NCBI GenBank assembly: GCA_025351825.1
Contig: JANXVE010000059.1
Span: forward strand, 1 to 45,837
DNA length: 45,837 nucleotides
Origin: Chamaesiphon sp. 341R_metabat_111
Lineage (GTDB): Bacteria > Cyanobacteriota > Cyanobacteriia > Cyanobacteriales > Chamaesiphonaceae
Direction: 5' to 3'
Below the pieces are notes generated by a model. The model had not been told where the DNA came from and did no database searches. It saw only the letters and a list, made by a program, of their open reading frames with translations. The position numbers were made by a program, and so were the translations under genes. Of this stretch, positions 12,866 to 23,668 are shown one piece after another. Within the stretch, counting starts at the first letter, position 1; each line of letters starts with the position of its first letter.

Positions 12866-14332
12866 TTGAAACGACAATTAAACTGGCTGACAGTCACCGC
12901 AGGTAGCATGTTAGCCACCCTCCTGCTCATCTCTGGTGCTCAAGCAGCCGAATCTTTTGCGGCTACACCCACTTCAGCCAGCTCCAGCTTGATTGCCAAC
13001 CATAACCCTAGCGACAGCCGTCAACTAATCGCCTCCAGGAAAAAGAAACGCCTCAAGAAAAAAGTTAAATCTAGACCAAAAACAACTGCAACAGCTCCAA
13101 CGACAACTACGCCCGCAACTTTACCAACAGATCTCACTCAAACTACCCCAGCACCACCAGCACCAACTCCCCCAGCACCACCAGCACCTGTCGCACCACC
13201 AGTAGAAACTCCTCCAGCACCTGTCGCACCACCAGTAGAAGCCCCAAAAGCCACAACTCCAGCTCCAAATCAGTTCTCCCTAACTACGAAGCTACAAGGA
13301 CAAGTAATTTTTGGAGCGACTGGAACAGTTGGTGGTGACTTCAGCCGCAACACAGCTCTTGGTGCTCGGAGCAGACTCGAACTCAAAACTGATATCGGTG
13401 GTGGTACGCTCACAACTCGGCTGCAAGCAGTGGGCTTAGGTTTATCCAATAAAGCACCCACAGCGGGAACTGCTGCGGTTGCGACTCCTGAAGGTAGCTT
13501 ATCCTGGACTGATGGTAGCACTGGCAATAGTATCGGAGTTGACGCACTCAAGTATGAATTTGCGCTATCTCCTCAAACACAGGTAGTCGTTGCCGCAAAT
13601 GCTGGTGCATCCGATGACTTCACCGATACCATCAATCCTTACTTTGACGGCGATGGTGCCAGCGGTTCGATCTCTGCTTTTGGTAATCGTCCCTCCATTT
13701 ACTACACGGTTCAAGGTGCTGGTGTTGGCATTCGCCATAAATTAAGCGACAGTACTGAACTCAGTGTTGGCTATTTATCCAGTACTGCGGCTAATCCGAC
13801 AGCAGGAAATGGACTACTTGGTGGTAGCTATGGTGCGATGGCCCAGCTTACCATCAAAGCAGGCGAAAATTCTAAAGTTGGGGTCACATACACGCGAACG
13901 CTAAATGCCAATCCTGGGACAGGCAGTACGAATGCCAATCCAGAAGCAGCCGGAAACAGCAATAACTTTGGACTGCAAGGTTCTTTTCAATTAAGTCCTG
14001 AATTCACCTTGGGTGGTTGGGCTGGTTATACCCAAAACCAAGCTGCTGGTGGTGACAGACAGATCTGGAACTGGGCGGTGACTGCGGCAGCTCCAAACTT
14101 CGGTGGTAAAGGTAACTTAGCTGGTTTCTTAGTCGGACAGGAGCCACGGGTTGCTTCTTCGAGTAATGGCACTACAGACGAAAAGTCTGGATTACATATT
14201 GAGGGTTTTTATCAGATGAAAATCAATGATAATCTCAGCATCACTCCAGGACTAATCTATCTGACAGCACCCAATCAAGCACCTGGAAATAGTGCGGTGA
14301 TTGGTGCGTTGAGAAGTACATTCACTTTCTAA
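12866..14332 (+). CDS. OprB-type cyanobacterial porin (iron uptake porin family), no SLH domain
   Basis: 488 residues from a TTG at 12866, preceded by AGGA (12853-12856) at 9 bases. This start gives a classic signal peptide (MKRQLNWLTVTAG...GAQA), whereas the TTG at 12821 adds 15 residues directly after the ferritin stop. After cleavage comes a lysine/arginine-rich patch (RKKKRLKKKVKSRPK), about 75 residues of proline/alanine/threonine repeats (APPAP, VAPPVE), then the beta-barrel from NQFSLTTKLQG to the terminal phenylalanine (LRSTFTF). Related cyanobacterial iron uptake porins normally carry an SLH domain in place of the basic/proline region. Outer membrane. A hairpin terminator follows. 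Confidence 0.85.
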   Translation: MKRQLNWLTVTAGSMLATLLLISGAQAAESFAATPTSASSSLIANHNPSDSRQLIASRKKKRLKKKVKSRPKTTATAPTTTTPATLPTDLTQTTPAPPAPTPPAPPAPVAPPVETPPAPVAPPVEAPKATTPAPNQFSLTTKLQGQVIFGATGTVGGDFSRNTALGARSRLELKTDIGGGTLTTRLQAVGLGLSNKAPTAGTAAVATPEGSLSWTDGSTGNSIGVDALKYEFALSPQTQVVVAANAGASDDFTDTINPYFDGDGASGSISAFGNRPSIYYTVQGAGVGIRHKLSDSTELSVGYLSSTAANPTAGNGLLGGSYGAMAQLTIKAGENSKVGVTYTRTLNANPGTGSTNANPEAAGNSNNFGLQGSFQLSPEFTLGGWAGYTQNQAAGGDRQIWNWAVTAAAPNFGGKGNLAGFLVGQEPRVASSSNGTTDEKSGLHIEGFYQMKINDNLSITPGLIYLTAPNQAPGNSAVIGALRSTFTF

Positions 14333-14347
14333 TCCTGAAGAATACTC

Positions 14348-14399
14348 AATAAAAATATAGAGCTGGGTAATGAATTACCTCACCTCTATATTTTTATTG
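14348..14399 (+). terminator. Terminator of the iron-type operon
   Basis: CAATAAAAATATAGAG (14348-14363) and CTCTATATTTTTATTG (14384-14399) are perfectly complementary over 16 bases, with an inner GGTAAT/ATTACC helix. It starts 15 bases after the porin stop; the right arm contains TTTTTATT. Confidence 0.7.
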
Positions 14400-14441
14400 G
14401 ACTTATACTGCTAACTGCTAACAGCTCACACGACAATATCC

Positions 14442-14948
14442 ATGTTAATGTCTCTCTCCATCTCCATTACTGCTGTTGGTGCTATTTTATTTTTTAGTCG
14501 TCGGCTACTGTGCTATCTCAGACACTTCCAACAAGTTGATTATAGTAAAGAGCAGTTTAGAGATTGGATCTTTGGAAATGGCATCTACGATAAAAAAGGT
14601 AGTCTGATTTCGGCGATTGCTGCCTTAACAATCGAGCTAACCAGGGAAAACATTGTCATCTCGCTGGTCGTTTCGACACTCGCGACCCTTGTATTATTAT
14701 GGGTAGGTTTAGCTGAAGATAACCCCATGGAAACAGGATTATTCAGGCTCCAAATCACCACACAATCCGCAGGAATATACAATATTGGTTTAGGTTTATA
14801 CTCGATTTTAGTAGCAATATCATTTTGGGTTACTTACGCACTCGGTGCTGGTGATGATATTGCTTGTTATTGGTTAGTCGTGATTATTTCGATTCAGTCT
14901 TCACCAATTTGGCTAGTTATTTCCAATAGTTTATGGAAACGGACTTAG
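14442..14948 (+). CDS. Hypothetical membrane protein
   Basis: 168 residues with four hydrophobic segments (about 5-25, 75-93, 112-137, 140-160). The first is followed by a basic amphipathic stretch ([20 protein letters not shown]) that recalls the N-terminal membrane region of some MurF-linked proteins, but this is not enough for a function. It ends tail to tail with the moaD-like gene, overlapping by 4 bases (14945-14948). Confidence 0.55.
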
Positions 14949-15220
14949 CCACCAGCTACTGCTGGAACGATACTCACTTGGTCGCCGTCAGCGAGTGGTG
15001 TCTCGGTGCCATTGAGAAAGCGGATATCTTCATCATTGACATAGAAATTCAGGAAGCGGCGCAATTGTCCGCTATCGTCACAAAGTCTAGCTTTGACTCC
15101 AGGACAACTAACTTCGAGCGCGTCTAATAATTCGGCGATACTCTTGCCTTCACACTCAATCGTAGCTTTATCGCTAGTAAATTTTTGGAGTGCAGTTGGA
15201 ACTAATACTTTTACAGTCAT
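14945..15220 (-). CDS. MoaD/ThiS family ubiquitin-like sulfur carrier
   Basis: 91 residues with a beta-grasp layout and the C-terminal diglycine (PAVAGG) at which such carriers are adenylated and charged with sulfur. The [14 protein letters not shown] ending is typical of the MoaD-like branch. It lies 122 bases downstream of thrC on the same strand. In mycobacteria a similar carrier (CysO) sits beside a PLP-dependent cysteine synthase; thrC is also a PLP enzyme of that fold type, so a shared job is possible but unproven. The ATG follows a C-rich repeat leader and has no clear ribosome binding site. Confidence 0.8.
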
Positions 15221-15235
15221 TTGATGATGGATGAG

Positions 15236-15285
15236 GAAGTGTGGGGAGTGTGGGAGGTGTGGGGAGTGTGGGAGGTGTGGGGAGG
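15236..15285. repeat. G-rich tandem repeat upstream of the moaD-like gene
   Basis: Alternating GTGTGGGGA/GTGTGGGAG units. On the coding (minus) strand it is C-rich and ends about 16 bases before the ATG at 15220, the same placement as at 911-985 and before panD. Confidence 0.8.
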
Positions 15286-15342
15286 AAGATGCTTTATTTC
15301 TCTACCTTTTCCCCCTTGCCTGCGTACCCTAAAGCCTAAAGC

Positions 15343-16641
15343 CTAAACTAACGTTTGTTGCCAATCGAGGCGGTTGAGGGTCTGAGAACGCTCTAGAGCG
15401 CGCTCAAAGCTGTCTAATTTGGCTTCGATCGCAAATGGCTCATTTACATAACCTTGGATCGACTCCTGGGTCTTGAGGCCGTTGCCTGTGATATAGACGA
15501 CGGTAGTTTCATCAGGATGGATTTTACCAGCTTCGATCAGCTTCTTGAGGACGGCGACGGTAGTACCACCTGCGGTTTCGGTGAAGATGCCTTCGGTTTC
15601 GGCCAGGAGTTTCATCCCTTCGATGATTTCAGCATCGGTGACTGATTCAATGTTGCCATTGGTCTTGCGGGCGAGTTCTAGGGCGTAGATCCCATCGGCT
15701 GGGTTGCCAATTGCGATCGATTTGGCGATTGTATTTGGCTTAACTGGGACGACAAAATCACGACCTTCGGCGTATGCTTGAGCGATGGGGGAACAGCCTT
15801 CAGCTTGCGCGCCGCTGAACCGGACTGGCTTATCTTCGACTAAGCCGATTTTGACGAATTCTTGGAAACCTTTGTGAATCTTGGTAAATAGTGAGCCAGA
15901 TGCCAATGGTGCGACGATATGATCTGGCAGTTCCCAGCCGAGTTGTTCGGCAACTTCATAACCGAGAGTCTTGGAACCTTCAGAGTAATAGGGACGCAGA
16001 TTGATATTTACAAATCCCCAACCGTAAGTATTGGCGACTTCACAACACAAGCGATTTACTTGGTCATAGTTACCTTGCACAGCCATCACCGTTGGCCCGT
16101 AAATTACAGTGCCCAGCACTTTACCCGCTTCTAGATCCGCAGGGATAAATACACAACAGTCTAAACCAGCATGAGCAGCAATTGCAGCAGTGGAATTTGC
16201 TAAGTTGCCAGTACTCGCACAGGAAATAGTCGAGAAGCCAAATTCTTTTGCTTTGGACAGGGCGACAGATACGACCCGATCCTTGAAGCTCAAGGTGGGC
16301 ATGTTGACGGCATCATTTTTGATGTAGAGATTTTTGATGCCGAGGCGACGGGCGAGGCGATTCGCTTTGAGTAATGGTGTCATACCTGTACCGACATCGA
16401 CAATGTGCTCGTCGGGAACAGGTAATAAATCTTTGTACCGCCAAATTGAATTGGGGCCAGCTTTGATGCTTTCGCGGGTTACTTTGGTACGGAGGTAATC
16501 ATAATCATATTGCACTTCCAATGGCCCAAAACAAAGTTCGCAAATGTGGGTAGCTTTGAGTTCATACTCAGTACCGCATTCTTTGCAGGCTAGTCCTTTG
16601 GCGGCAGTAGTTCTGGTGCTGTTTAAGGTTGCTTGGGTCAT
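15343..16641 (-). CDS. thrC: Threonine synthase
   Basis: 432 residues from the ATG at 16641 (MTQATLNSTRTTAAKG); a longer frame from 16716 adds 25 residues unlike the family. The enzyme turns O-phosphohomoserine into threonine using PLP. The N-terminal zinc-ribbon-like motif (CKECGTEYELKATHICELC) is typical of the plant/cyanobacterial type. The PLP lysine lies in LSFKDRVV, and STGNLANSTAA is the phosphate-binding loop. Full length. The moaD-like gene follows on the same strand after a G-rich repeat. Confidence 0.95.
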   Translation of the reverse strand: MTQATLNSTRTTAAKGLACKECGTEYELKATHICELCFGPLEVQYDYDYLRTKVTRESIKAGPNSIWRYKDLLPVPDEHIVDVGTGMTPLLKANRLARRLGIKNLYIKNDAVNMPTLSFKDRVVSVALSKAKEFGFSTISCASTGNLANSTAAIAAHAGLDCCVFIPADLEAGKVLGTVIYGPTVMAVQGNYDQVNRLCCEVANTYGWGFVNINLRPYYSEGSKTLGYEVAEQLGWELPDHIVAPLASGSLFTKIHKGFQEFVKIGLVEDKPVRFSGAQAEGCSPIAQAYAEGRDFVVPVKPNTIAKSIAIGNPADGIYALELARKTNGNIESVTDAEIIEGMKLLAETEGIFTETAGGTTVAVLKKLIEAGKIHPDETTVVYITGNGLKTQESIQGYVNEPFAIEAKLDSFERALERSQTLNRLDWQQTLV

Positions 16642-16755
16642 GGTGGGATGTCGCGATGAATTTGATATCCGTTTGCTTGTTGGAATAAACATAACATGAC
16701 TCGATCGACCCGTCAAACATACCCGACTAATTTAGTCGGGTATGTTTGAAATAGT

Positions 16756-17118
16756 TCAGCTTATTGCCTTTGACATATCACCATCCAATCCCAATGCCTC
16801 CCGCAACAATGGGCGCAACTCCTGCGGTAATGCCAGAAATATCCGCTTATCTTGAGGATTTTGCTTGTATTTGACCCCTGCGGCTACCATCTTCAGAGCC
16901 AATCCTAACTCTGGATGCGGTTTACCCAATTCTTGCCACATTTTCAGCCACTCATTGGCGGTGACGATCTCACTGGCAAAACTGTCACTCTCAAACCTGG
17001 CGATGCTAATTACGCTGTGGTAAATTGGTATTGGATGGGTCAAAACCTCAGAAAATGAAGCAAAACGATGACAATACTCGCTTCTGAATCCACCATCGCA
17101 AATAAAAACGATCCACAC
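16756..17118 (-). CDS. Doubtful hypothetical; possible C-terminal remnant of a larger protein
   Basis: The 120-residue frame opens with a GTG and has no good ribosome binding site. The first 40 residues look random. Residues 45-115 (NEWLKMWQELGKPHPELGLALKMVAAGVKYKQNPQDKRIFLALPQELRPLLREALGL) look like real protein, reminiscent of the C-terminal tail of cyanobacterial TPR-type proteins. The gene is best read as the end of a once longer gene whose upstream part (17119-17391) is lost or scrambled. Confidence 0.35.
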   Translation of the reverse strand: MWIVFICDGGFRSEYCHRFASFSEVLTHPIPIYHSVISIARFESDSFASEIVTANEWLKMWQELGKPHPELGLALKMVAAGVKYKQNPQDKRIFLALPQELRPLLREALGLDGDMSKAIS

Positions 17119-17391
17119 AAAGAACGAATGCGTGCGATTGCGTACAACCTGGATATGCTATTTCCTGGTGTCTATATTTGGTGGGGATTGCTTGTCCTAA
17201 AATTTGGCGGGCATGAACCAGACGATTCCCCTCATCGTTATCCTGGATCGATCGATAGTCGGGTTGGTTTTGCCATAGTTTTTCCAGGCTACAAAATATT
17301 TACGACTTATAAGGGTTCTTATGACCCTCGATAAACATCAGATTGATGGTTTGTCTGAGTTTTCGAGCAAGATGTGTAATAACGTAAGTAT
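17119..17391. other. Stretch without a recognisable gene
   Basis: A plus-strand frame (17068-17334) exists but its translation shows no recognisable fold and overlaps the doubtful frame at 16756. I see no repeat or RNA gene here. It may be decayed coding sequence. Confidence 0.3.
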
Positions 17392-17928
17392 CTAATACAC
17401 CAATCGATCGACTAATCCAGGTAGTTTAGTTTTACCAATCCCGCATTTTAATTTAGTTAGGAAAGTCAAGTTCCTAATCTGCTCGACAGATCGATATTTG
17501 ATAATTGACTGGGCGAGCGTTGCTGGTTCAATTTTACTAAAGACAGTAATATTTGCTTTGATATTCTCAAAAGCTGCTATTAATTCTACTTCTGATGCTT
17601 GATTGAGATTGACTTTAAGAGTTGTTCCGGCCTCAACTTTGAGTTGAACAGCCATCTCATCATCAACAACTATACAATAGACAAAATCTAATTTAGCTTG
17701 TTGAGCTGCGATTAAGATTTGGCTGTTTAACACCGCAGTATATTTATCTTCTTTCAGGAGCTTGACCATTACAGGTAAAATATTTTTGCCAGAAATAGCT
17801 AGTTCAGCAGCAATGGCATTAATTACCATCACTTCTGCACTAGATTTACCTTGAATAAATTTGCATGGTAAGCGTAAAACTTGCCCTAAAGGGGTATTGG
17901 TGCTACGTCGCTCTAGAATTGATACCAT
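17392..17928 (-). CDS. ParB-like protein with helix-hairpin-helix-like C-terminus
   Basis: 178 residues. Residues 12-100 follow the ParB/sulfiredoxin N-domain pattern: a PCKFIQ strand, AIAAELAISGKNILPVMVKLLKEDKYTAV, then the position of the GERR CTP-binding motif, which reads VLNSQILIAAQ. That motif is therefore absent. Residues 103-178 resemble paired helix-hairpin-helix units (LKVNLNQASEVELIAAF...LAQSIIKYRS; LKCGIGKTKLPGLVDRL) that bind DNA without sequence preference. It lies 51 bases after the ParA fusion on the same strand, so the two look like a ParA/ParB pair. The function (partition or something else) is open. Confidence 0.6.
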   Translation of the reverse strand: MVSILERRSTNTPLGQVLRLPCKFIQGKSSAEVMVINAIAAELAISGKNILPVMVKLLKEDKYTAVLNSQILIAAQQAKLDFVYCIVVDDEMAVQLKVEAGTTLKVNLNQASEVELIAAFENIKANITVFSKIEPATLAQSIIKYRSVEQIRNLTFLTKLKCGIGKTKLPGLVDRLVY

Positions 17929-17979
17929 AATAAGTTACCTCAATTTGATTAGTAGATCGGACAGGAAAATTAAACAAGC

Positions 17980-19428
17980 TTATTTATCTGTATAGTTATG
18001 ACCTAGAAAAACTTCAGTAGTTAACTTGTGAAACAACTTAGTGATTTGAGAATTTTGCCAACAGATGACTGGCTTCTCTTGAAATTCTGCCTGTTTAGTT
18101 TGAGCAAAGTTAATTAAGCGTGTATTTACTTGTTTGCCTGTAAATCTTTGCTGCTCAATTACATCAGCAATTGATTTCTCTATGCCCACACCAATATGAG
18201 TTGGGCAAAGACTGTATAGTAATCCTAAATTCCAAGGGCCGACAGTGAAATTATCAGCCTTGTCACGCATAGTTTGAAGTGTCGGGATTACCTTTGAGGA
18301 AAGCTCGATCGCGTGTTTTAAAGATTTAGCTCCTAGATCGAACGGCAAGAGAATAGTGTCCGCAGTACATAATAAACACTGAGCTAATTTGTCCGACTTA
18401 GGCGAAGCATCGATAAAGATATAATCATAATTTTCACGAATTAGATCGAGAATATTGTTAAAGATAACATGTGCTGCTTGAGGACGAGTACTATTATCAT
18501 TAATATTGTTTAAATAATCTTTTGATGAAGACAGTAGAGATAAGTGGAAACTTCGACCATCACTAGTCGCAAAACTCTTGATTTGAATTGATTTTGTCAG
18601 GATATCTTTAGCTCGATCTAATTCCTGGAGTTGAAGCTGGTCATAAACGCGATCGAAATAATCAGGTGCATAATTTTCTTTCAGACCAATTCCACTAGTC
18701 AGATCGTTTTGTGGGTCTAGATCGATTAATAGGACTCGCTTACCAGCTAGAGCTAGGCAAGAAGCAACGTTGATGGTATTAGTAGTTTTGGCAACGCCAC
18801 CTTTACTGTTCCAAATTGCTGTCACCAAAGCTGATGGCGGAGCTTGCAAACAGTGTGCTAACTCTTTCAATAATTTTGGTAGGCTAGTTTTGTTAACGCG
18901 CCTGATGGTTGTCATGGGAATAACTAATCCATCTACTCGTCGCCATAGTTGGAAGAAATCACCGTTAAATACTAATCCGTAACTAGCCAGGTGACTGGGA
19001 TTGACCCTGGTAATATCTAAGTATTGAATAATTCCATTATTATTAGATCTAACTGGTAACCCGACAGCATCTTTATATAAAGGGCTATTCTGGCACGTAG
19101 TCACAAAATTTACATCGCTTACTTCTGCTAAAGCTGATTCGCGCTTTTTAATTTCTATTGCTAATACAGGGGGCTGTGTTGGGTCGCTATAAATTAAATA
19201 ATCCGGCACTAACCCAGCACCAATACGAGGTGTATTTTTAATTTGGTGATGATTTAGTCCTAAATAGTCGAAGAGTCTCACCATGAAAGTAGCTCCCAAA
19301 TCTGCCTCTGGGTAGCTTGTCGGGATACTCGCCCAAAGATCGACAATTTTTTTGGAGCTAGTTTTAGCTGGTGGTGGGGTAGCCGTAATCACGAAATCTC
19401 TGCTCCTTGAAGATGATGGTTCAGTCAC
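17980..19428 (-). CDS. ParA-type ATPase fused to an N-terminal PD-(D/E)xK nuclease-like domain
   Basis: 482 residues in two domains. Residues about 28-190 resemble the HsdR_N restriction-enzyme domain: a helical E41 region, then VPDYLIY (D76) and LAIEIKKR (E92-x-K94) at PD-(D/E)xK spacing. Residues about 200-480 are a ParA ATPase with the deviant Walker A KGGVAKTT (209-216), LLIDLDPQNDLTSG, and a later YIFIDASPKSD. ParA proteins form ATP-dependent dimers on DNA and move cargo; a nuclease-like extension is unusual. The ParB-like partner follows by 51 bases. No replication, integrase or plasmid genes are adjacent, so this is a chromosomal or integrated locus. Whether the nuclease fold is active cannot be told from sequence. 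Confidence 0.8.
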   Translation of the reverse strand: MTEPSSSRSRDFVITATPPPAKTSSKKIVDLWASIPTSYPEADLGATFMVRLFDYLGLNHHQIKNTPRIGAGLVPDYLIYSDPTQPPVLAIEIKKRESALAEVSDVNFVTTCQNSPLYKDAVGLPVRSNNNGIIQYLDITRVNPSHLASYGLVFNGDFFQLWRRVDGLVIPMTTIRRVNKTSLPKLLKELAHCLQAPPSALVTAIWNSKGGVAKTTNTINVASCLALAGKRVLLIDLDPQNDLTSGIGLKENYAPDYFDRVYDQLQLQELDRAKDILTKSIQIKSFATSDGRSFHLSLLSSSKDYLNNINDNSTRPQAAHVIFNNILDLIRENYDYIFIDASPKSDKLAQCLLCTADTILLPFDLGAKSLKHAIELSSKVIPTLQTMRDKADNFTVGPWNLGLLYSLCPTHIGVGIEKSIADVIEQQRFTGKQVNTRLINFAQTKQAEFQEKPVICWQNSQITKLFHKLTTEVFLGHNYTDK

Positions 19429-19764
19429 GTAGCATCGATCTCAATTTACGACACTCTCGATCGTGACTAAACAGATATTCAAGCAATTTCAACTAGAAAC
19501 AGGACATTTTGAAGTAATATTTATCAGCATTTACTCACCGTTGATATTTTTGTAAGCTTACATCGCAGCGTTTCGATCGGACTTCAAACTGAGCTGCCTC
19601 GACTCCAACTGGTATCCTGCAAACCGATAAAAATGCTCTAACAGGGTATATCGATCGATTCAAACCCTCCAAGTAAATAAAATCTGCAATGCCGTTGCGA
19701 TTATTGCGAATAATCTGTTAAGATTTAGCCTATTCCCCAATATTGGATTGCCAACGGTTAAATT
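19429..19764. other. 336-base divergent intergenic region
   Basis: Separates the parA-like operon (minus) from the HTH/PIN pair (plus), so it should hold both promoters. I see several CGATCG sites and the palindrome listed at 19699-19715. No convincing parS-like iterated site was found. Confidence 0.4.
19699..19715. promoter_or_regulatory. Palindrome GATTATT GCG AATAATC, candidate TA operator
   Basis: Perfect 7-bp arms with a 3-base centre, 49 bases before the start of the HTH antitoxin. Antitoxins commonly repress their own operon at such sites; binding here is inference. Confidence 0.4.
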
Positions 19765-20220
19765 ATGGGCAACCTCAATTATCCTGCCTACATCCCCAGT
19801 GAAGACGACACCAAACTCTCCCAAGAGAGCAGCCGCATCCTGACTACCTATCTCAGTCCCAACGTCCACCAGATTGAGATTGTCGAAGCAGATGGTAACA
19901 AACATTCAGCCACCATCCCCGCTGCCGCCTACCGCTTACTCGTTGATGCTTTAACCCAAATGGCTCAGGGTAATGCCGTCAGCCTAATCCCGATTCATGC
20001 CGAACTCACGACTCAAGAAGCAGCCGATTTACTCAATGTCTCCCGACCATACCTAATCAAACAAATCGAACTAGGTGAAATCCCGCATCATAAAATCGGC
20101 AAACACCGCCGGATTAATTTCAACGATCTGATGGTTTATAAAGACCGGATCGATCTCGCGACAGCGCAAGGGTTAGATGAAATGGTGACAATTTCTCAAG
20201 AGCTAGGACTATACGACTGA
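19765..20220 (+). CDS. Antitoxin with excisionase-family helix-turn-helix
   Basis: 151 residues. The HTH lies at about 80-120 (LTTQEAADLLNVSRPYLIKQIELGEIPHHKIGKHRRI), the MerR/excisionase-like type found in antitoxins that pair with PIN toxins. The N-terminal 75 residues contain a small beta-rich segment (VHQIEIVEADGNKHSATIPA). The stop TGA shares one base with the start of the PIN toxin gene. The palindrome 49 bases upstream is a candidate autoregulatory site. Confidence 0.8.
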   Translation: MGNLNYPAYIPSEDDTKLSQESSRILTTYLSPNVHQIEIVEADGNKHSATIPAAAYRLLVDALTQMAQGNAVSLIPIHAELTTQEAADLLNVSRPYLIKQIELGEIPHHKIGKHRRINFNDLMVYKDRIDLATAQGLDEMVTISQELGLYD

Positions 20221-20792
20221 TGGCTGCTAATATCGCAGTAGTCTATGATGCTTGCGTTCTATATCCTGCCCCTTTACGCGATTTGTTAGTCCAATTGGCG
20301 ACAACCGGAATTTTTCGAGCAAAATGGACGGAGCTGATTCATGATGAGTGGACGCGAAATCTGTTAATCAAGCGTCCCGACTTGAATGCTGACAGAATCG
20401 CACGGCTGAGAGTCTTGATGAATCAGAATGTGCCCGATTCTCTAGTCACAGATTTCGAGGATTTGATTTCTACCCTGGAGTTACCCGACTCTGATGATTG
20501 CCACGTTCTAGCTGCCGCAATTAGGGCAGACGCTAAAATTATTGTCACTTTTAACCTCAAGGATTTTCCAAATCCAATCCTTGTCAGATATGGAATAGTC
20601 GCCCAACACCCAGATGTGTTTATTGGCGATCTCATCGAGCGATATCCTTACCAAGTCTTACAAGCTGTTAATACGATTTTAGCTCGATTGAAAAATCCAC
20701 CCCAGACTTTTGAGAATCATCTGGAAATTTTAGCAAATCAGGGCTTGCAAACTTCCGTTGCGATGCTCCGCGATCTTCGCTACGAGAGCTAA
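20220..20792 (+). CDS. PIN-domain toxin
   Basis: 190 residues. The PIN fold occupies the first 130: acidic residues at AVVYDACVLYP (D9), the central EDLIS/DSDDCHVLAAAIRADA segment and the late VTFNLKDFP. These acidic residues hold the metal of the RNase site. The HDEW segment and C-terminal extension match the PIN_3-type toxins that pair with excisionase-like HTH antitoxins. Translationally coupled to the antitoxin by a one-base overlap. RNase activity on tRNA or mRNA is the family expectation. Confidence 0.85.
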   Translation: MAANIAVVYDACVLYPAPLRDLLVQLATTGIFRAKWTELIHDEWTRNLLIKRPDLNADRIARLRVLMNQNVPDSLVTDFEDLISTLELPDSDDCHVLAAAIRADAKIIVTFNLKDFPNPILVRYGIVAQHPDVFIGDLIERYPYQVLQAVNTILARLKNPPQTFENHLEILANQGLQTSVAMLRDLRYES

Positions 20793-20807
20793 TTTATCCA
20801 TCATCCA

Positions 20808-21608
20808 CTATTCACTAATTTCCCGTTGACGTACATATCCAGCAATGCCGCGTTGGGAAGTTTTGATAAAGTCGCAGATTTCGGTGACTAGTGGTGAATC
20901 GAATTCTGTTTCCAATCTGATTAAAGCTTCAGGGATAAGTAGATTGGACTGATAGAGAATTTTGAAGGCGCGTTTGAGTATCAACCTTTGTTCTGAGGTA
21001 AGTCCAGCGCGACGCAATCCGACGCTATTCAATCCCATCACTTTATTGAGCGTCGTGCTGCGCGTCATGCAAAAGGGGGGAATGTCTTTGTGCGCTGCCG
21101 AACCGCCTGCCATCATTACCAGTCTACCGACTCTGGCAAATTGATGAATTAGACAATTGCCGCTAATGAATGCGCGATCTCCAACTTCGACATAACCCGC
21201 GAGGAGTGCGCCGTTGGCAACTATCACATCGTTACCGAGTTGGACATTGTGAGCGAGGTGGCTGTATGCCATCAGGAGGCAGTTATTACCGACAGTTGTC
21301 TTTGTACCTGGTTTAGTACCGCGATGGATAGTTACGCCTTCTCTGAGGGTGCAATTGTCGCCGACTTTGACATAGCTCGGCTCATCTTTGTAAGCCACAT
21401 CTTGAGGAGTATCGCCAAGCACGACATTTGCATGTATGTGGCAATTTTGACCGATCGAGGTGTATGGCAACAGGGTCACATGAGCATCTAAAATACAGTT
21501 GTCCCCAATCTCTACATCATGTCGGATGTAGCAAAATGGACCGATCGAGACATTAGCACCAATTTTAGCACCAGACTCGATCGCGGCTGTCGGATGTATT
21601 TGACTCAT
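20808..21608 (-). CDS. lpxA: Acyl-ACP--UDP-GlcNAc O-acyltransferase
   Basis: 266 residues from the ATG at 21608 (MSQIHPTAAIESGAKIG); a longer frame from 21656 overlaps pam68 and is rejected. LpxA adds the first acyl chain to UDP-GlcNAc for lipid A. The left-handed beta-helix hexapeptide repeats span about 5-185, the catalytic histidine lies in MAYSHLAHNVQLGND, and the C-terminal helical domain (GLRRAGLTSEQRLILKRAF) is complete. It is only 4 bases after pam68 on the same strand. No lpxD, fabZ or lpxB lies in the window, unlike the usual enterobacterial cluster. Confidence 0.95.
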   Translation of the reverse strand: MSQIHPTAAIESGAKIGANVSIGPFCYIRHDVEIGDNCILDAHVTLLPYTSIGQNCHIHANVVLGDTPQDVAYKDEPSYVKVGDNCTLREGVTIHRGTKPGTKTTVGNNCLLMAYSHLAHNVQLGNDVIVANGALLAGYVEVGDRAFISGNCLIHQFARVGRLVMMAGGSAAHKDIPPFCMTRSTTLNKVMGLNSVGLRRAGLTSEQRLILKRAFKILYQSNLLIPEALIRLETEFDSPLVTEICDFIKTSQRGIAGYVRQREISE

Positions 21609-21612
21609 AAAA

Positions 21613-22086
21613 TTAGCGATTGCTGGCTTCCATCTCTTTGGAGGCGCGATAAGCATCCTTCATTCTGCCAAAGTTGACTTTAAATTCGGCGACACCGAGG
21701 AGACTACCTTTGGTATCTTCTTCTTCATCCCAACAGGCGGAAAGGATGCCGTAAGTTAATCCCAGTACGCTCAACCCCAAACAACCCATACTCATTAGCA
21801 AGACTACCGTATTGGGGAGTCTAAACCAGTTATTGGCGATCGCCAAATAACCGATAATAAAGACTGACATCCCCATCAGCACGGGGATGCCGCAGAATAC
21901 CAGCACCCGCCGAATCATCCGCTGACTGACAATCTCAGGAATAAAGCCAGAACCCTGCTCCGCCATTGCTGGTGGTGGGGTGGTTGGATTCACGATTGTT
22001 ACTCCTTTTGGCGCGGACGATCTACGCTGCTTCCGATTTTTTTTCGGCTCGAATGGTACCGATGGGCGAGGATTCTCAGCAGTCAT
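21613..22086 (-). CDS. PAM68-type photosystem II assembly protein
   Basis: 157 residues: a basic N-terminus (EPKKNRKQRRSSAPK), two transmembrane helices (about 58-82 and 90-115), and the acidic-then-polar tail (CWDEEEDTKGSLLGVAEFKVNFGRMKDAY) that marks the PAM68/DUF3464 family. In plants and cyanobacteria PAM68 helps assemble CP47 into photosystem II in the thylakoid membrane. It follows rpsO by 114 bases on the same strand and precedes lpxA by 4. An ACTAGCCACTAG-type repeat lies between it and rpsO (about 22142-22186). Confidence 0.85.
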   Translation of the reverse strand: MTAENPRPSVPFEPKKNRKQRRSSAPKGVTIVNPTTPPPAMAEQGSGFIPEIVSQRMIRRVLVFCGIPVLMGMSVFIIGYLAIANNWFRLPNTVVLLMSMGCLGLSVLGLTYGILSACWDEEEDTKGSLLGVAEFKVNFGRMKDAYRASKEMEASNR

Positions 22087-22141
22087 AATTATCAGTTGGT
22101 GGCGATTTTAAGTATCTGTAATAAAATAAAATACTTTATAG

Positions 22142-22186
22142 CTACTAGCTACTAGCCACTACTTTCAAGCCACTAGCCACTAGTTA
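22142..22186. repeat. TAGCTACTAGCCACTA tandem repeat
   Basis: Units of CTAGCCACTA/CTAGCTACTA between rpsO and pam68. The related AAACCACTAAACCACTAAA stands at 2883-2904 and 8896-8933. Confidence 0.55.
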
Positions 22187-22200
22187 TCATGTTCGAGTCA

Positions 22201-22476
22201 TTATTTGACGCGACGAATGCCGAGGCTATCCGCGAGGTTTTGGTAACGTTGAACGCTTTCAGTGTTGATGAACGCCAATAAACGTTTGCGTTGCCCGATC
22301 ATTTTTAATAAGCCTCGGCGAGACGCATGATCGCTTTTGTTGGCTTTGAGGTGTTCGCTCAGGCGGTTGATTCTTTCAGTCAGCATGGCGACTTGCAGAT
22401 CGGAGGAGCCTGTATCGGTTGCGTGCAACTGATGTGCGGACATGATTTCTTGTTTGCGTTCTTGGGTTAAGCTCAT
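22201..22476 (-). CDS. rpsO: 30S ribosomal protein S15
   Basis: 91 residues, normal for S15, which binds 16S rRNA early in assembly of the small-subunit platform. The conserved HATDTGSSDLQVAMLTERI and LSEHLKANKSDHASRRGLL segments and the C-terminal YQNLADSLGIRRVK are intact. Single ribosomal gene followed on the same strand by pam68 and divergent from rseP. Confidence 0.98.
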   Translation of the reverse strand: MSLTQERKQEIMSAHQLHATDTGSSDLQVAMLTERINRLSEHLKANKSDHASRRGLLKMIGQRKRLLAFINTESVQRYQNLADSLGIRRVK

Positions 22477-22579
22477 GAATACAGAGAAATTTTGATTAAA
22501 TTTTGCAGCTTACTATTTTAGCATTTAACCGTTGATTTTGACTAGAATGAAGAGATAAAGGTCAGGAATAAGGGAAGAT

Positions 22580-23668
22580 ATGTCAACACTGGCGGCGATT
22601 GGAGTTCTAGCGTTATTAATTTTCGTGCATGAGTTGGGTCACTTTTTGGCAGCGAGATTACAGGGGATCTATGCCAATAAATTCTCGATCGGTTTTGGGC
22701 CAGTATTATTGAAGTATCAGGGTAAGCAGACTGAATACGCGCTCCGAGCATTACCACTGGGTGGTTTTGTGGGGTTTCCCGATGACGATCCTGAGAGTGA
22801 TATTCCGCCAACGGATCCTAATCTACTCAGCAATCGACCAGTCCTCGATCGAGCGATCGTCATCAGTGCGGGTGTAATTGCCAACCTAATTTTCGCTTAT
22901 TTCTTGCTCGTAGTCCAGGTCAGCGTAATTGGATTTCAGCAAATCGATTATCATCCTGGTGTTACTGTCGCCGGAATCACCAATGCATCAAGTTCGGCTG
23001 GTAAGGCGGGGCTTCAAGCAAATGATGCAGTTTTAGCGGTAAATAGCGAGCAACTAGGTGAAGGCAGACCTGCAATTACCAAATTGATGGCAGAGATTCA
23101 AAACCATCCCAATCAGGCAATTACCTTCCAAATTAAGCGTGGTGACAAGGTATTAGATCTGCAAGTTACGCCTGATGCCACCGCTGATAACAAAGGTCAA
23201 ATTGGTGTCAGACTCGTGCCCAATGCCGATATTATCATCAATCGATCGATTAACCTCATTGATGCACTCAAAAAAGGAGCTGTTGAATTTGAACGAGTAA
23301 TTGTCCTAACCGTTCAGGGTTTAGCTCAATTAGTTACCAATTTTGGCGAGACAGCGACTCAAATTGCGGGACCGATCAAAATTGTCGAAATTGGTTCGAC
23401 GATTGCAGAGAATAACATCGCGGGACTGCTGCAATTTGGCGCGCTGATTAGTGTCAATCTAGCAGTAATGAATACACTGCCATTACCCGCTTTGGATGGC
23501 GGTCAACTGGCGTTTTTATTGCTTGAAGGATTGATGGGCAAACCATTGCCAATGAAGATTCAAGAAACTGTGATGCAAACTGGTCTATTTTTACTGCTAG
23601 GATTGGGAGTATTTCTGGTAATTCGCGATACAGCGAATCTCTCCAGTGTTCAGCAATTCTTTAAATAG
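22580..23668 (+). CDS. rseP: RseP-type site-2 protease (M50 metalloprotease)
   Basis: 362 residues. The zinc site HELGH (H17-H21) lies in the first helix, a PDZ domain spans about 105-190, and the third zinc ligand sits in NTLPLPALDGGQL (about residue 306). Such proteases cut membrane-bound anti-sigma factors or signal peptides within the bilayer. One PDZ domain is typical of the cyanobacterial form. It heads a four-gene membrane operon: the next gene starts 5 bases after its stop. Confidence 0.93.
   Translation: MSTLAAIGVLALLIFVHELGHFLAARLQGIYANKFSIGFGPVLLKYQGKQTEYALRALPLGGFVGFPDDDPESDIPPTDPNLLSNRPVLDRAIVISAGVIANLIFAYFLLVVQVSVIGFQQIDYHPGVTVAGITNASSSAGKAGLQANDAVLAVNSEQLGEGRPAITKLMAEIQNHPNQAITFQIKRGDKVLDLQVTPDATADNKGQIGVRLVPNADIIINRSINLIDALKKGAVEFERVIVLTVQGLAQLVTNFGETATQIAGPIKIVEIGSTIAENNIAGLLQFGALISVNLAVMNTLPLPALDGGQLAFLLLEGLMGKPLPMKIQETVMQTGLFLLLGLGVFLVIRDTANLSSVQQFFK

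Follow-up and report, generated by a model that had tools for sequence, protein, structure and literature searches.

Type I ParABS systems, known from ParA/Soj and ParB/Spo0J and from plasmids P1 and F, are the closest described relatives of the locus reported here, and among them the type Ia ParA proteins carry a DNA-binding domain at their N-terminus. The SCP2 ParA-ParT system indicates that partners working without cytidine triphosphate (CTP) can serve partition, according to the available part of PMC12260392. The nucleotide motif of ParB proteins (GxxR) and their ParA-binding motif (LG(K/R)G(L/F/I), which P1 ParB is also said to be without) are taken here as defined in the available part of PMC12704722. 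In this work we analyze a two-gene operon at positions 17392-19428 of contig JANXVE010000059.1 from Chamaesiphon sp. 341R_metabat_111, the whole 45,837-nucleotide contig being referred to as the window. In this operon a ParA ATPase carries an N-terminal domain resembling that of the restriction protein HsdR and is followed by a ParB-like gene. We consider it reasonably probable, though well short of certain, that the operon is a ParABS-like module for DNA maintenance (partition), carried by cyanobacterial plasmids and here by a chromosomal insertion, with an HsdR_N-type domain on its ParA.

The ParA gene and its N-terminal domain

Both frames of the operon, which had been reported in an initial annotation made from the sequence, are present, and translation of the longer one does yield D76, E92, K94, KGGVAKTT and IDLDPQND. 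The features of the operon are the following:

17980..19428, reverse strand: HsdR_N-like PD-(D/E)xK domain fused to a ParA ATPase, 482 residues from the GTG at 19428
18859..19347, reverse strand: N-terminal PD-(D/E)xK-like domain, about residues 28-190, with E41, D76, E92, K94, R96, Y136 and N155
17989..18834, reverse strand: ParA ATPase, residues 199-480, by Pfam, structure match and conservation
17392..17928, reverse strand: ParB-like partner, 178 residues, predicted to have a ParB/Srx fold (residues 16-103) and a ComEA-type helix-hairpin-helix (HhH) domain (residues 104-178)

Because AAGGAG is found at 19408-19403, ten bases upstream of a second GTG (19392, codon 13), and the closest homologue (L008) begins at the position matching this codon, GTG 19392 is probably the true start of the ParA gene, which would give a protein of about 470 residues. 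Residue numbers nevertheless count from GTG 19428 throughout. The family comparisons below rest on 29 collected ParA rows, from which two duplicates, one row apparently interrupted by a transposase and one with a stop were dropped to leave 25.

The ParA half shows a Pfam AAA_31 match at residues 201-375 (E 6.6e-33) and carries the deviant Walker A motif KGGVAKTT together with DLDPQND and FIDASP, while K209, K214, D236, D238 and D340 are each conserved in 25/25 rows. The closest solved fold to its predicted model is Soj (Z 24.2, root mean square deviation (rmsd) 2.6, 249 aligned residues), and McdA is also among the closer ones (Z 21.4). As far as the sequence and the model can tell, the ATPase half is complete. 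The ratio of nonsynonymous to synonymous substitution rates between the window copy and L008 was 0.13-0.16 for the N-domain, 0.09-0.10 for the ATPase and 0.09-0.12 for the partner.

The assignment of the N-domain to the HsdR_N/PD-(D/E)xK kind, already proposed in the initial annotation, is borne out by Pfam matches in some homologues and by a profile comparison that falls on the HsdR motif. With E values up to 1 allowed, HSDR_N was matched by 6/20 and HSDR_N_2 by 3/20 family N-domains (best 8.2e-5 and 2.9e-6, respectively), and the divergent plasmid members L092 and L093 passed the curated cut-off of HSDR_N_2 (25.5 bits against 25). Alignment of the family N-domain profile to HsdR with hhalign gave E 5.1e-5 over 43 columns and placed D76, E92 and K94 on the HsdR motif, with a modest probability (67%) and against a set of nine sequences that were chosen by the motif itself (one of them, L167, being doubtful), so that this comparison is biased towards the motif. 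The comparison with a second family of ParA fusions, described below, is free of that bias; it gave E 9.4e-5 with 22% identity over 96 columns, again with D76, E92 and K94 aligned and a modest probability (59%). The second family matched HsdR with E 2.1e-4. As controls, reversed profiles gave values of 0.21 or above and the best of 120 column shuffles (three sets of 40) was 0.013.

In the AlphaFold2 model the N-domain has a predicted local distance difference test (pLDDT) value of around 90 and consists of a helix (41-55), strands at 63-65, 77-79 and 89-93, helices over 98-122 and a strand at 150-154, an order compatible with the PD-(D/E)xK fold. The match lists of the full-length ParA model in Foldseek and VIA-align searches were filled by the ATPase half, and in the viral structure library two matches passed 0.001, both of them ParA-type, a type I restriction R N-terminal domain protein appearing only at a weak E of 0.075. 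A sequence search of solved structures returned nothing below E 0.1 for the window N-domain or for the partner. A match of the second-family N-domain to 7ue2 (5.2e-8) was set aside, as it consisted of four weak repeats of about 12 bits each and the name of the entry suggests a designed repeat protein.

E41, E92, K94, R96, Y118, Y136, N155 and Q160 are identical in 25/25 family ParA rows, E92, K94 and R96 being also invariant in a 15-row homologue alignment, and D76 is conserved in 23/25 rows, with K in one and N in another. Thus, the possibility considered in the initial annotation that homologues always lack D76, E92 and K94 did not occur. All 30 sequences of the second family have D, E and K. 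The PD-(D/E)xK domain is probably catalytic, and since the whole catalytic set has been kept across two distant families, the balance of probability tips towards DNA cutting.

The ParB-like partner

The second gene had been described as ParB-like, and its predicted model (mean pLDDT 81.8, predicted template modelling score 0.51) agrees: residues 16-103 match Myxococcus ParB (7bnk_A; Z 12.3, rmsd 2.4, 85 aligned residues), and Caulobacter ParB, Noc, KorB and PadC are also among the matches, with ParB folds at Z 11-12. Residues 104-178 match ComEA (8dss_B) with Z 7.9, rmsd 2.0, 62 aligned residues and 29% identity. This HhH assignment is weaker than the ParB call, as a Z of about 8 for a small helical domain is weak alone, and HHH_3 Pfam matches agree with it. 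The window partner has no Pfam family above the cut-off; at E up to 1, ParB_N was found in 5/13 partners (best 0.025) and HHH_3 in 3/13 (best 1.3e-4). The C-terminal part, as read from the alignment, is seemingly duplicated after a proline-rich linker in L009, L010, L012 and L022. A partner was found by tblastn beside 26/29 ParA rows (two of the 29 being duplicates), the three others being L020, L021 and L023, the last of which is cut by the contig end.

Distribution and plasmid carriage

The family of the window pair was detected in 6/386 cyanobacterial genomes at 1e-40, this genome included, and in five plasmid records that represent four distinct plasmids:

Plasmids with the family of the window: Nostoc unnamed10; Leptolyngbya boryana pLBA (two records); Pseudanabaena ABRG53g; P. 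galeata pPg_01

More distant pairs are found on the Nostoc plasmids unnamed9 and unnamed4. ABRG53g is a plasmid of 12.6 kb with an annotated CyRepA1 replication gene, and none of its 16 other proteins matches a partition family at 0.001. Being chromosomal, as the initial annotation described the system, finds no support as a defining trait. Among the functions that it offered, element maintenance fits best, given the carriage on four distinct plasmids. Its statement that no replication or integrase genes are nearby holds for the open reading frames (ORFs) of 14000-23500, which were read and six of them scanned with Pfam, but it does not extend to the homologues, as these are on plasmids. Three other plasmid ParA matches are each annotated as ATPase or ParA and adjoin a ParB gene. 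A copy at L145:6207-8838 is apparently interrupted by a transposase and has a short partner of 77 residues, as in a decaying locus.

Among 58 genome-contig loci, 16 cover the N-domain and all of these are cyanobacterial by title; a spread beyond Cyanobacteria was considered and rejected, given that the other 42 match only from residue 152 on, in a scan that used patterns from one sequence and that distant fusions outside Cyanobacteria could escape. When 19 ATPase-only or viral loci were examined, 18 had no more than 63 codons upstream of the P-loop, and for the remaining one no frame was obtained. A general link to phages was likewise discarded. Phage records never reached 80% coverage of the ParA query, the listed rows (15 of 110) beginning no earlier than residue 156; the matches in 17 viral contigs were confined to the ATPase, and searches of viral contigs with the N-domain alignments of the two families returned no relative. 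The tie to phage rests on the single plasmid pLBA (NZ_AP014639.1, L188/L090), where 10 of 108 annotated features were scanned and terminase (9.8e-100), portal (1.1e-20) and major head (1.3e-10) matches were obtained, so that by sequence it looks like a phage-plasmid.

A second family of fusions

The same genome contains, on contig C76, a 459-residue HSDR_N_2-ParA fusion (L098:6284-8571) with HSDR_N_2 at 26.8 bits (cut-off 25) and AAA_31 at 2.1e-53, directly followed by a 302-residue protein with ParB_N (6.5e-9). It represents a second family, only distantly related to the window pair (about 22% identity in the aligned N-domain), which 59 of the 386 sampled cyanobacterial genomes match at 1e-30. 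The fusion is present in 48/386, as 35 single alignments, nine cases of two alignments in one frame, three partial alignments and G151, where a 503-residue frame holds the D...ExK motif; one further genome (G080) has a fragment. In G300, G286 and G013 one frame encodes the N-domain and another, next to it, the ATPase (L194, L195, L196); these could be real split genes or frameshifts. An ATPase match without an N-domain of this kind was found in seven genomes (G011, G213, G123, G111, G360, G118 and G121).

The partner is directly downstream in 29/30 second-family loci fetched, its frame beginning no more than 5 bases from the ParA stop in 28 of the 30, and the remaining locus (L107) has a shortened one. 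No neighbour gene family other than the pair was common to more than three of 18 regions. Plain ATPase-only operons (G011, G213, G123 and G111) have a ParB-like gene directly downstream in 4/4 cases, and no N-domain was found there within the 5.8-9.5 kb read. Because these close relatives keep the ParA/ParB-like operon, the N-domain is, as judged from these sequences, a module that has been added to the operon or lost from it.

Two of these loci have particular surroundings. The C76 pair adjoins dnaJ-, uvrB- and ilvB-like genes (names read from sequence). In G121 (L193:4277-5854) the ParA frame runs about 250 residues upstream into a helicase-end-like part and may be a different fusion; its partner is directly downstream, and at the edge of the stretch read there is another gene, of the HsdR_N-ParA type.

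The chromosomal insertion site

The site of the window pair is empty in a genome of the same genus (G389), in which a match to window 14946-16751 is followed by 435 bases and then by a match to 20824-22476. The missing stretch is the following:

16752..20823, no strand assigned: stretch absent from G389, holding a 120-residue ORF, the pair and a helix-turn-helix (HTH)-PIN gene pair

On the basis of this empty site, the sequence comparison indicates that the window copy is a chromosomal insertion. Its flanks, the thrC and lpxA sides, hold ordinary genes, among them lpxA and one resembling threonine synthase (names read from translations), and are joined in G389 alone, being on separate contigs or apart in the other genomes of the genus. 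Among nine same-genus genomes, this one included, G390 is the only other one in which DNA matching most of the pair was found; its contig is L008 in reverse orientation, and the neighbours there differ from those of the window copy.

Within the inserted stretch, an excisionase-type HTH gene (TIGR01764, 1.1e-14) and a PIN-domain gene (RSP_2648 model, below its cut-off) lie divergently beside the pair at 19765-20792 on the forward strand. Judged from their sequences they look like a toxin-antitoxin-type pair, and DNA similar to them is present elsewhere in G391. The 120-residue ORF (16756-17118, reverse strand) has no family match, and part of it is 92% like a place in G391. A short repeat at 15235-15287, between moaD-like and thrC-like genes, has many further copies in this genome and in those of other cyanobacteria. 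Some inverted repeats occur near the pairs, for example at L088 9032-9165 (their significance was not computed).

The neighbours of 14 loci (L008-L010, L012-L018, L022, L143, L144 and L146; L011, L019-L021 and L023 were left out) were scanned with Pfam and PADLOC, taking up to three proteins per side of at most 700 residues (64 of 65 proteins). The scan gave 41 PADLOC models at 1e-10 and 68 Pfam families, of which 25 were listed, and two of the 64 proteins have a ParA-type ATPase domain. The PADLOC models among the matches listed (25 of 41) hit at most two proteins each and are mostly methyltransferase models, and the 64 proteins show no evident clustering of defence genes (no baseline was computed).

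Discussion

The fusion, the conserved residues of its N-domain, the operon structure and the carriage on plasmids, together with the predicted fold of the partner, are best accommodated by a partition function. According to this, the ParB-like partner would hold cargo DNA through its HhH domain, without a CTP clamp, and would contact ParA, stimulating and following nucleoid-bound ParA-ATP, so that DNA could be moved or held in place. The HsdR_N-type PD-(D/E)xK domain at the N-terminus of ParA would engage DNA and could probably cut it under the control of the ATP state of ParA and of the partner, a possible use being the processing or removal of DNA without a cognate complex. A stricter version, in which ParA is a regulated DNA-cutting enzyme that carries its own replicon and cuts any DNA not covered by the ParB-like partner, is doubtful at present. 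If it were true, a cutting ParA would provide segregation with built-in enforcement, in the form of incompatibility, plasmid exclusion or the clearing of unpartitioned copies.

Several results weigh against a partition operon of this kind. Residues 1-200 of the window protein match no Pfam family, also at E up to 1, and the two D76 exceptions (L020 and L021, which are close relatives of each other) have lost the D. On the partner side, the GxxR motif is present at the aligned place in 0/26 rows (two of them duplicates), LG(K/R)G(L/F/I) is present in 0/13 partners (the region reads LGQVL, LGQIR, LGRVL, LGELQ, LGKVI, etc.), and instead of the central HTH and C-terminal dimer domain of canonical ParB, residues 104-178 model as HhH. 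Around the pair, neither the window nor ABRG53g nor unnamed10 showed a clear array of centromere-like repeats, in a survey that would miss a single site. The 12 second-family loci picked from few-contig assemblies are all on contigs of 2.6-7.1 Mb, and among the best 5000 plasmid records just one covers 80% of the second-family fusion, in two pieces and with 24.7% identity. Finally, unnamed10 has further annotated ParA, ParB and ParG, and unnamed9 has an annotated ParM/StbA and a further chromosome-segregation ATPase; because of these other partition genes, the pair may have another job on these two plasmids.

The serious rival to cutting is that the nuclease-fold N-domain only binds DNA (operator, centromere or nucleoid), replacing the HTH of type Ia proteins within an otherwise ordinary partition system. 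We regard this as possible but clearly less probable than the reading that we favour. The core operon has no need for cutting, since the ATPase-only relatives keep their partner (4/4), L020 and L021 have lost the D while keeping E and K, and the partner too uses a general DNA-binding fold, the HhH. However, a role limited to binding has to be reconciled with the conservation of E41, E92, K94 and, in most rows, D76, and with the invariant D, E and K of a family only about 22% identical, as in our judgement binding alone rarely keeps a whole catalytic set.

It could also be proposed, in line with the defence or plasmid exclusion suggested in the initial annotation, that the nuclease is directed at incoming DNA or rival replicons, which ParA and the ParB-like protein would recognize by the absence of the resident complex. 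A restriction-type domain with conserved active-site residues, an accessory and patchy distribution (the site is empty in a congener), the coexistence with other partition genes on one plasmid (unnamed10) and the large contigs on which the second-family loci read are located would all agree with this. But in PADLOC the pair shows no more than a weak match of its ATPase half to PDC-M28B (2e-6), the partner matching none, the listed PADLOC models hit at most two of the 64 neighbours each, one plasmid with the pair (pLBA) has phage head genes and versions with the ATPase only exist. Defence finds little support and is improbable. Still less probable is that the pair positions non-DNA cargo or the chromosome itself, as McdAB does with carboxysomes, the N-domain tethering ParA to the nucleoid. 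The McdA match of the ATPase half and the chromosome-sized contigs of the second-family loci would fit such a role; the predicted DNA-binding HhH domain of the partner, or the Rho_N/SAP-like ends in relatives, the carriage of the window family on plasmids and its patchy occurrence (6/386 genomes) argue against it.

Preferring a partition operon, we compare it with the systems already described. Like type I ParABS, it has a ParA fold with deviant Walker motifs, a ParB-like gene directly downstream and carriage on plasmids, but its ParA bears a PD-(D/E)xK-like N-domain, its partner is without GxxR, LG(K/R)GL and HTH and has a predicted HhH, and no parS was found. Because the partner fails these three canonical ParB features, we do not file the pair as a plain ParABS member, despite its presumably ParABS-like working. 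It also resembles the N-terminal domain of HsdR (HSDR_N/HSDR_N_2) from type I restriction enzymes in its aligned D...ExK motif and in the Pfam matches of its homologues. However, it has no helicase/translocase domain, the rest of the protein being ParA, and no ORF resembling HsdM or HsdS was seen in 14000-23500 (ORFs read by eye, six scanned with Pfam), so the fusion is not a type I restriction enzyme. SCP2 ParA-ParT-parS of Streptomyces (PMC12260392) likewise combines, on a plasmid, ParA and a CTP-independent ParB-like partner. ParT is without the CTPase fold and keeps the middle DNA-binding domain of ParB, whereas the window partner is predicted to keep the ParB fold without the nucleotide motif and to bind DNA with an HhH, and the available text of PMC12260392 mentions no nuclease domain for SCP2 ParA. 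The divergent ParB-fold proteins described in the available part of PMC12704722 are often on plasmids too and show altered nucleotide motifs and domain fusions, including HNH, but in those proteins it is the ParB side that bears the nuclease-like domain, and here it is ParA.

Neither "hsdr" nor "helix-hairpin-helix" occurs in the main text of PMC12704722, the word "nuclease" is absent from the main text of a review of ParA-family DNA partitioning (PMC9178275), and we found no account of an HsdR-ParA fusion or of such a cutting partition machine in the literature covered (most subscription papers were outside its scope). As far as this literature shows, a nuclease-type domain on a ParA would be a novelty in the partition field. 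Should the domain cut, a single enzyme would unite the segregation of plasmids with the destruction of DNA, which would offer a direct handle on the coexistence and exclusion of cyanobacterial plasmids. The natural fusions, the separate-frame versions and the ParA-only versions make the role of the domain testable by swapping.

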